Virus record (IMG/VR): IMGVR_UViG_3300028423_001099
Location: 1-64,000 of that record
Length of the DNA stretch: 64,000 bases
Source of the DNA: a virus
Direction: 5' to 3' (one strand)
Part shown: positions 19,327-50,165 of the stretch, in pieces
Layout: each line of letters starts with the position of its first letter
Numbering within the stretch: the stretch's first letter is position 1
The notes under the pieces: model-generated
What the model saw: the letters and a program-made list of their open reading frames with translations, nothing else
What the model was told of the DNA's origin: nothing
The model's database searches: none
Translations under genes and position numbers: made by a program

Positions 19327-19617
19327 CTACTGTGCTAGCTGAATGTCTGTGGTTGCTTCTGTGTAGGATTTAGCAATGCCTTCGTCTGTGAGAGCACAGG
19401 CAACAACTGTGTTTCTATTTAGTCGCAGTTTGTCGGGTTTGGCAGTCATCATATAGGGAATAATGCCCATGCCCTGCTGATTGGCTGCAATGGTGGCTGG
19501 CTTTGAAACCACCACCTGCTCATCTGTGGTTTCTATGTAGTTTGCAATAACTTCTTCGCCCGTGATGAGCTTGAGGCTGACAATGTCGTTTTCTTTGAGA
19601 GGCTTTTCAATAAGCAT
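19327..19617 (-). CDS. Small Sm-like beta-barrel protein (paralogue A)
   Basis: A 96-residue protein with strands matching a Sm/LSM-like pattern: VSLKLITGEEVIANYIE, then VVVSKPATIA and IIPYMMTA. It resembles the protein at 41902-42195 (TGEEIIAELLG, VLMPYVLTA), so the phage has two copies. An RNA-binding role would be inference. It is the first gene after the early promoter at 19642-19670 and starts the sleB-queD-nuclease operon. Confidence 0.6.
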   Translation of the reverse strand: MLIEKPLKENDIVSLKLITGEEVIANYIETTDEQVVVSKPATIAANQQGMGIIPYMMTAKPDKLRLNRNTVVACALTDEGIAKSYTEATTDIQLAQ

Positions 19618-19641
19618 GTTGATCTCCTGTTTGTATAGTGT

Positions 19642-19670
19642 ATTTTATCTGAAAAACACAGTGCAGTCAA
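19642..19670 (-). promoter_or_regulatory. Sigma-70-like (early) promoter
   Basis: Minus-strand TTGACT (19665-19670), 17 bases, TAAAAT (19642-19647). An AGGAG site follows in the leader of the Sm-like gene. Confidence 0.75.
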
Positions 19671-19740
19671 GTTTTTTGTGAAATTCGCCAAAAATAACCG
19701 TTTCTGCCTGGTATATTAACTTGGTTTGTAAATACAACAG

Positions 19741-19841
19741 TGGACAGCGCACTGTTCAGTCTAACAAGTAATTGAACACTGCGTCCCTCTTAGAATACGC
19801 TATATAGAAGCAGAGAACTGCAACTTTGGCTGTCCATTTTT
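19741..19841 (+). ncRNA. Candidate structured small RNA, about 100 nt
   Basis: In the 262-base gap between two genes. TGGACAG (19741-19747) pairs perfectly with CTGTCCA (19830-19836) to close a multi-branched fold. Inside are a 10-bp stem with one mismatch (19749-19758 with 19773-19782) and a GCAG/CTGC hairpin with an AGAA loop (19810-19821). The closing stem is followed at once by TTTTT (19837-19841), like a terminator, which indicates plus-strand transcription. No tRNA T-loop is present, and no open frame. I do not match it to a known family. Confidence 0.5.
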
Positions 19842-19851
19842 AATTATACAA

Positions 19852-19863
19852 TGCCGGCCGGCA
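19852..19863. repeat. Perfect 12-bp GC palindrome
   Basis: TGCCGGCCGGCA lies between the RNA candidate and the end of the UvdE gene, standing out in an AT-rich gap. Possibly a protein site or part of a terminator; function unknown. The rest of the gap 19671-19740 shows no gene. Confidence 0.45.
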
Positions 19864-19879
19864 CACACACATGATTGGA

Positions 19880-20932
19880 TTATACTAGCTCGTGCTCTGA
19901 AAACTTCACAGTTTCCAGCAGTTGATCTACGGCCAAGTTCTTCATCTTGCTCTCACACTCTACGTCTGCATAAGGCCAATAGCTCATGGCCCACTGATTG
20001 GCCACGGGGTTGGGATAGTAGTCTGAGTGTGCACGCAGTTTGGTTTTCTTAGCGCCTTGATCAATGAGATGGTCTCGGTCATGCAGTGCTTGATGTTTGT
20101 TATCAATGTCGGGGATGTGCTCGTCACGACTGTAGCTGTAGTGTATTAAAGGACGCACGCCGCGCCAACTGTCCACGACCTGTTGAAACCTAAGGTCTGT
20201 GGGCTGTATGTATTCGCCCTCTCTGACCCAGTGATGGTGAATGTCAAGCACCAGTGCCACGTGATCTCGAAGTTTGAGGCTCTCATCTAAGCCCCAGCCA
20301 AACTCGTCATTTTCAATGGTGATGGTGTTGCGGGCCTCTGGACTCAAATGCGGTAGCACATCAATGATGCCTTGAGCACCCAGTCGACCCGATATGTGCA
20401 CATTGCAACAGAAATCTTGGAACTGTTGACCATAGCCCATCCAGCGAATCATGTCACAGTGATATTCGAATTCGTCGATGCTGCGTTCTACCACATCGGG
20501 CTTGTCAGAAGCTAACACACAGAACTGACCGGGATGCATGTCCAATCTCACATCCAGTCTCCGTGCGGCTTCGCCTACTTGTGCAAAGCCCTGTTCCAGC
20601 CATCGTCTAGTATCTGAGTCTTCCCATAGGTAACGCCAAGTGGGTTCAGTGGCCATGGGTATTTGATGACTGCCCAGTCTTACCATGCGTTTGTGCTTTG
20701 GGAGGCTACCTACCCACTCAACCAATCGCAGTGCGGATGCCATGTTGTGCTCAACCAGTTCATGGAGGCGCTGTTCGGCATCCTGTTGTGCTTGACGGTT
20801 CAGCCAGGCCACGGTAGTACTACGTTCTGTGTACTGCTGTTGTTTTTCATGGAGTATCTTTTTGGGCTGATCTTGGTTAGGATCCATGTATTTGCAACAG
20901 AAACCTATGCGCTGTGTGCTTTGGTCAAACAT
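19880..20932 (-). CDS. uvdE: UV damage endonuclease (UvdE)
   Basis: A 350-residue TIM-barrel nuclease. Family metal ligands are visible: RLDMHPGQFCVLAS, ITIENDEFGW, LVLDIHHHW and KLRAHSDYY, and the N-terminal RIGFCCKYM signature. It nicks DNA 5' to UV photoproducts. Start overlaps the upstream 100-aa gene, and both are behind the promoter at 21235-21263. A DNA-repair gene suits a phage of sunlit water. Confidence 0.92.
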   Translation of the reverse strand: MFDQSTQRIGFCCKYMDPNQDQPKKILHEKQQQYTERSTTVAWLNRQAQQDAEQRLHELVEHNMASALRLVEWVGSLPKHKRMVRLGSHQIPMATEPTWRYLWEDSDTRRWLEQGFAQVGEAARRLDVRLDMHPGQFCVLASDKPDVVERSIDEFEYHCDMIRWMGYGQQFQDFCCNVHISGRLGAQGIIDVLPHLSPEARNTITIENDEFGWGLDESLKLRDHVALVLDIHHHWVREGEYIQPTDLRFQQVVDSWRGVRPLIHYSYSRDEHIPDIDNKHQALHDRDHLIDQGAKKTKLRAHSDYYPNPVANQWAMSYWPYADVECESKMKNLAVDQLLETVKFSEHELV

Positions 20933-21273: not shown

Positions 21274-21281
21274 GATAAATA
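21274..21281 (+). promoter_or_regulatory. T4-type late promoter box GATAAATA
   Basis: Plus strand, 37 bases upstream of the ATG at 21318, with GGGGAGA in the leader. Head of the plus-strand virion-type operon. Confidence 0.7.
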
Positions 21282-37183: not shown

Positions 37184-37351
37184 TTATCTTTCGTTAGGAC
37201 GTTTGCTCACAAACTGATTAAGGCTTTCTGCTTCGTCGAGCACTTCTTCAGTGGTAGGCATGTCTTCGGGGTTTTTGGCTCGTGCTTGAAGTATTTCTCT
37301 GGCTTCACGCACAAGATCCAAACGAATTTCGTAAGGAGTTTTGTTTGACAT
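37184..37351 (-). CDS. Small helical protein, 55 aa
   Basis: Begins MSNKTPYEIRLDLVREAREI, charged and helical throughout, with AAGGAT before the ATG and a late box 49 bases further upstream. It has its own promoter and terminator, which suggests a monocistronic, well expressed message. T4-like marine phages often carry such a small protein; no function known. Confidence 0.7.
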   Translation of the reverse strand: MSNKTPYEIRLDLVREAREILQARAKNPEDMPTTEEVLDEAESLNQFVSKRPNER

Positions 37352-50157: not shown

Positions 50158-50165
50158 TATTTATC
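50158..50165 (-). promoter_or_regulatory. T4-type late promoter box GATAAATA
   Basis: Minus strand, with a normal 30-base leader and a GGAGATATAACA-GTG start of the 1016-aa gene. Confidence 0.7.

Follow-up and report, generated by a model that had tools for sequence, protein, structure and literature searches.

The window analysed here, a stretch of 64,000 nt, corresponds to positions 1-64,000 of the IMG/VR virus record IMGVR_UViG_3300028423_001099, whose parent fragment is 86.6 kb long. It contains an intergenic gap of 262 nt (19618-19879) flanked by two minus-strand genes, in which a preliminary description had located a structured RNA candidate and had found no reading frame; the longest ORF in the gap does not exceed 52 aa, in agreement with that description. 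The gap is plausibly the largest in the window, the ORF calling being crude. Elsewhere in the window, an apparent 400-nt gap likely holds an unlisted gene of 55 aa (37184-37351, minus strand). The locus comprises the following features, and one copy of the RNA element, taken together with its upstream box, spans 19728-19841 on the plus strand.

19327-19617, minus strand: gene for an Sm/LSm-like protein of 96 aa (PHROG 527), homologous to PDB 3by7; divergent neighbour
19642-19670, minus strand: promoter of sigma-70 type (TTGACT-17-TAAAAT) belonging to the Sm-like gene, arranged back to back with the RNA
19690-19717, plus strand: A/T tracts conserved ahead of the box, with AAAA at about -38 and TTTT at about -26 and -14
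19728-19734, plus strand: promoter-like (G/T)TAAATA box, conserved before the closing stem P1
19741-19836, plus strand: structured RNA body, from the 5' arm to the 3' arm of P1 (scored by model R3 at 63.9 bits, with E 1.5e-9 for the window)
19837-19841, plus strand: T5, terminator-like, directly after P1
19852-19863, no strand assigned: perfect palindrome TGCCGGCCGGCA, separating the RNA from its convergent neighbour
19880-20932, minus strand: gene for a UvdE-type UV endonuclease; convergent neighbour

The 96-aa protein is predicted to have an Sm/LSm-like fold on the basis of a profile match to PDB 3by7 (E 2.4e-7) and of its AlphaFold model, for which 3by7 is the best match, followed by spliceosomal Sm proteins. 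This family (PHROG 527) is widespread in aquatic phages, including phages that do not carry the RNA.

Relatives of the element and their genomic setting

A search with the UvdE protein as query retrieved 80 viral contigs, in several of which part of the gap is 81-85% identical and is always found upstream of a gene homologous to the other neighbour. Scanning with a degenerate DNA pattern of the core identified 41 contigs, and a looser pattern 29 more (25 genuine, 4 chance). Chance pattern matches in contigs L140, L142, L143 and L147, as well as in L259 and L268, were discarded. After removal of duplicates, 44 distinct family-1 elements in the window plus orientation were aligned without reference to structure (alignment A3) and used to build the covariance model R1, which revealed a second, divergent family in contigs without an earlier known copy, on the same strand and nearly always adjoining UvdE. 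The family-2 elements were likewise aligned structure-free (A4), and a joint alignment (A5), containing a few spurious rows, was fitted to the structure of R2, a model built from family 2 only. The R2 model matches the window copy on the same strand (E 0.0022, E-values of covariance models being approximate) and recovers most family-1 elements where they were already known, in the known orientation, and thus the relation between the families is reciprocal: their stems differ in sequence and their fold is common to both. Altogether, pattern scans and covariance models matched the element in about 106 further IMG/VR contigs of aquatic viruses, drawn from collections of assembled metagenomes that contain duplicates. 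In 12 of 12 large records, R1 yielded exactly one match per record. The terminase of a related carrier contig shows 57% identity to Pseudomonas phage PA5oct, a 287-kb phage.

The element was absent from the more distant UvdE or Sm-like phages tested, and a blastn search of the element against a phage collection of isolates returned no related element. A single, sub-threshold match among eight selected isolate genomes, in Agrobacterium phage Atu_ph07 (R3, E 0.7), was rejected, as it lies inside a gene and lacks the P3 hairpin. In bacterial genomes, the family-1 pattern gave no match, and the 11 matches of the family-2 pattern were dismissed as chance, being without R3 support.

The two families occupy different settings. 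Family-1 elements have the divergent Sm-like gene on one side, 110-210 nt away (further in one clade), and various convergent genes on the other; family-2 elements lie between a divergent ferredoxin gene and a convergent UvdE gene, with the Sm-like gene approximately 2-3 kb away. The ferredoxin that is the 5' neighbour of the RNA in L235, L240, L249 and L261 is of the 7Fe type, as named from its cysteine pattern. In one clade (L125, L127-L129, L131, L136, L145, L149 and L152), an extra small ORF separates the RNA from the Sm-like gene. The constant position of the family-1 element upstream of the Sm-like gene could be read as that of a cis-acting leader or riboswitch, encoded on the minus strand and controlling this gene; however, a conserved sigma-70 promoter sits between the element and the Sm-like gene, the placement of G-U pairs (see below) favours the opposite strand, and the family-2 element adjoins ferredoxin and UvdE genes instead. 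A leader is therefore very improbable, and we rejected this reading once family 2 turned up elsewhere with different 5' neighbours.

Conserved fold and compensatory changes

Four parts make up the fold: the stem P1, which closes it; the hairpin P3, with 4 bp and a fixed loop; the joint CUANNUAG, also fixed; and the hairpin P2. In consensus order, P1 is followed by CAGUCUAACAAG (CCAGUUGACAA in family 2), by P3 with the loop CNCUC(A)UUARNAU, by the joint (C)UANNUAG, by P2 and by the 3' arm P1'. In the window, these parts are assigned as follows.

19741-19748 and 19829-19836, plus strand: closing stem P1 of 8 bp, a conserved helix with 5' arm TGGACAGC and 3' arm GCTGTCCA
19757-19768, plus strand: joining motif, conserved as CAGTCTAACAAG, in family 2 as CCAGTTGACAA
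19781-19784 (GCGT) and 19797-19800 (ACGC), plus strand: conserved P3 hairpin with loop CCCTCTTAGAAT at 19785-19796
19800-19807, plus strand: conserved joint CTANNTAG, in the window CTATATAG
19810-19821, plus strand: P2 hairpin, a conserved helix of GCAG (19810-19813) and CTGC (19818-19821)

The closing stem had been described as a perfect helix of 7 bp; its length is 8 bp. The GCAG/CTGC hairpin noticed earlier is present in the sequence and recurs in the relatives as P2. A further hairpin with 9 of 10 pairs, formed by GCACTGTTCA (19749-19758) and TGAACACTGC (19773-19782), can likewise be drawn in the window copy, but it is peculiar to that copy and is not conserved in the relatives. It would exclude P3, which the first reading of the sequence had missed, since its 3' arm shares nucleotides with GCGT (19781-19784), the P3 5' arm. 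A search for compensatory changes in related genomes had been suggested as a check on both the closing stem and the 10-bp stem; the former shows such changes, whereas the latter is not maintained. Taken singly, the window copy folds moderately better than chance (z = -2.8, with 1 to 3 of 200 shuffles equally good), and the whole gap folds no better than its shuffles (z = -1.2). In contig L133, the minimum-energy fold is exactly the consensus fold.

P3 is the best-conserved helix of the element. Its stem takes the forms GCGU/ACGC, GUGU/ACAC, GCCU/AGGC and GGGU/ACCC in A3, with no broken pair in 44 sequences, and further stems such as UCAC/GUGA and UCGC/GCGA are equally free of broken pairs; in the joint alignment, 100% of P3 cells are paired and 4 of 4 pairs covary. 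P1 reads GGACAG/CUGUCC in one form and is replaced by a wholly different ACUGAUUGG/CCAAUCAGU in family 2, in which the P3 stems also differ from those of family 1 and P2 has 5 bp. In A3, 96.6% of cells are paired, and the score for P1 and P3 together is 0.215 vs. 0.102 for shuffled alignments, none of 500 reaching the observed value, and no more than 0.069 for slid pairings. The corresponding covariation values are 96.1% and 0.326 vs. 0.131 shuffled and at most 0.094 slid for A4, and 93.3% and 0.680 vs. 0.191 shuffled and at most 0.065 slid for A5, in which compensatory two-sided changes occur at 18 of 18 pairs, this alignment being structure-fitted and containing a few spurious rows. The shuffles ignore phylogeny; the slid pairings keep relatedness, and they score far below the observed values.

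Three unpaired segments are largely kept while the stems change. A kissing interaction CUAA/UUAG between the P3 loop and the joining motif was tried and rejected, as it is broken in L082, L094 and L098 with no compensation. The element has no conserved reading frame, indels between copies not being in multiples of three. The compensatory helix changes across relatives, together with this lack of a frame, identify the element as a predicted structured non-coding RNA, in support of the unassigned structured RNA proposed in the preliminary description.

Strand, promoter-like box and 3' end

All early matches lay upstream of the Sm-like gene, and for this reason the minus strand was considered first. 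However, wobble cells count 18 G-U vs. 5 A-C in A3 and 9 G-U vs. 6 A-C in A4, several of the A-C cells in these structure-free alignments coming from misaligned rows. P1 of L125 and L084 and P2 of L090 are perfect only on the window plus strand, across whole clades, and the mean stability of both P1 and P2 is higher on this strand; the exceptions are P1 of L088 and the P1 end of L009, which favour the opposite strand in one pair. The G-U placement, the U-runs after P1 and the box before P1 disfavour the minus strand and make it likely that the RNA is encoded on the window plus strand, as the T5 found directly after the closing stem had implied.

The TAAATA core of the box does not vary among the 25 representatives of family 1 and the 14 copies of family 2 compared, and its distance to P1 in family 1 is 6-8 nt, mostly 7. 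The other side of the element has no comparable promoter-like conservation. The A/T tracts at 19690-19717 are common to the RNA and the divergent promoter of the Sm-like gene. In the window, the starts of structural and other genes are preceded, at a distance of about 30 nt, by sites reading GATAAATA, and these constitute the predicted T4-type late promoters of its phage; examples are found at 50163, 53604, 55344, 60056, 60518, 61011 and 63260 on the minus strand and at 21276 and 39045 on the plus strand. The base preceding TAAATA is never A in 27 of 27 family-1 elements. Since the box imperfectly matches the phage's own late promoters, the timing of transcription is uncertain.

A U-run right after P1, such as the T5 in the window, also occurs in two divergent copies, L098 (T7) and L033 (T6), both without a palindrome; the window palindrome has no U-run behind it. 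Most copies have no U-run after P1 and carry a separate palindrome instead. A palindrome of at least 8 nt is located just past P1 in 41 of the 44 family-1 copies, and palindromes are present in family 2 too; shuffles lead one to expect at least 8 nt in 30% of cases and at least 10 nt in 9%, and many of those observed measure 14-24 nt. Their centres vary (GGCGCC, GGCC, GGGCCC, CCGG) with self-complementarity kept. The palindrome, which separates the RNA from the convergent gene, is a candidate terminator or protein site, and may possibly represent a bidirectional terminator common to the convergent pair, although the terminator scan is only mildly directional (34 vs. 21 of 68).

These features bear on two further readings. 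The whole element might merely serve two convergent genes as a large hairpin for termination or processing, with no product of its own, as would be consistent with the U-run that follows P1 in some copies and with the palindrome beside it; but most copies use the separate palindrome without any U-run after P1, and a terminator needs neither the conserved three-helix junction with its fixed loops nor an upstream box, which leaves this reading most unlikely. Alternatively, the locus could function at the DNA level, for example as a transcription-primed replication origin composed of promoter, phased A/T tracts, palindrome and primer transcript. The single copy, the conserved A/T tracts, the palindrome and a sign change of the GC skew near 20 kb are compatible with an origin; however, the skew change coincides with a switch of gene strand, and compensatory stems, the G-U preference and loops kept while stems change indicate a folded RNA, so that we attach little probability to an origin.

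Interpretation and comparison with known systems

The element is not a tRNA, as had been stated before: ARAGORN found no tRNA over the window, and no tRNA model of Rfam matched. A search of Rfam 15 (4227 families) covering both element families gave no match at gathering thresholds, and the matches at relaxed thresholds are weak and far below the curated cut-offs. In the part of the literature searched, we found no description of this RNA; the family is previously undescribed and absent from Rfam 15.

Comparison across relatives establishes the predicted fold, its three unpaired segments, the fixed divergent and convergent placement and the presence of one copy per genome. An element that is divergent from the Sm-like or ferredoxin gene, convergent on its other side and single-copy points to an independent RNA gene, neither a tRNA nor a leader. 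As a whole, we consider it probable that 19741 to approximately 19841 on the plus strand forms a gene in its own right, encoding a structured non-coding RNA about 100-150 nt long, which would be transcribed and act in trans. The (G/T)TAAATA box, similar to a T4-type late promoter, would direct its transcription, possibly late in infection, and the 3' end of the transcript would lie either at the U-run following P1 or at the palindromic hairpin further on. The weakest step is the proposed action in trans via the conserved junction and loops, which would most likely consist in binding a host or phage protein.

A trans-acting antisense regulator, whose pyrimidine-rich P3 loop CCCUCUUAG would pair with ribosome-binding sites, is a less favoured mode of action: in its favour are the strong conservation and C/U-richness of this loop and the nearby Sm gene for an RNA-chaperone-like protein, but the loop becomes CAAUCUUAG and C-CUCAUUAAGAU in other copies, and the complementarity of the two conserved single-stranded segments to start sites in the window is no better than shuffled. 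Antisense pairing is thus improbable, and protein binding is preferred because three separate unpaired segments are largely kept while the stems change and because of this shuffled-level complementarity. A more specific version of protein binding, in which the RNA and the phage's own Sm/LSm-like protein would form a dedicated phage ribonucleoprotein with RNAs of the host or the phage as its targets in infected cells, is attractive since the Sm-like gene neighbours the RNA (back to back in family 1, no further than about 3 kb away in family 2); we regard it as a rather unlikely, speculative possibility.

Phage genomes are compact, and a single-copy RNA gene that persists although its neighbours and most of its sequence change must therefore be useful to the virus. 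Its carriers are large T4-related aquatic phages, the RNA biology of which is almost unstudied. The explicit fold and covariance model can be used on any cultured relative, and an RNA encoded beside an Sm-like protein thus offers a concrete handle on both.

Phage-encoded non-coding RNAs are known from large T4-related aquatic phages, namely CfrI of S-PM2 and the PhotoRC-II and wcaG motifs of cyanophages (PMC2984593, PMC9964418), and the RNA described here is likewise phage-encoded, non-coding and carried by phages of this kind. In contrast to these, it is matched by no Rfam model; moreover, CfrI, with a length of about 225 nt, is an antisense RNA to both psbA and a gene for a homing endonuclease, whereas the present RNA is intergenic and about 100 nt long. 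Its conservation pattern, that of a rigid junction, is also unlike that of a simple antisense sRNA. With Hfq/Sm-dependent sRNAs it shares being small, structured and probably U-rich at the 3' end, as well as a phage Sm-like gene adjoining or within a few kb, a likeness of genomic proximity alone; unlike in such pairings, the phage Sm-like genes also occur without the RNA. Among solved structures, PDB 3by7 is the one most closely related to the neighbouring protein, both in sequence profile and in fold, a likeness that concerns this protein and not the RNA, to which it is adjacent in family 1 only. T4-type late promoters read TATAAATA, or NATAAATA in cyanophages, and consist of a TATA-like octamer placed roughly one helical turn ahead of the start, with no conserved -35 element (PMC2988020, PMC2984593). 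The box of the RNA, KTAAATA at a fixed spacing before P1, is a candidate for a promoter of this kind, but it differs in reading (G/T)TAAATA, with ATAAATA in 0 of 27 elements tested.
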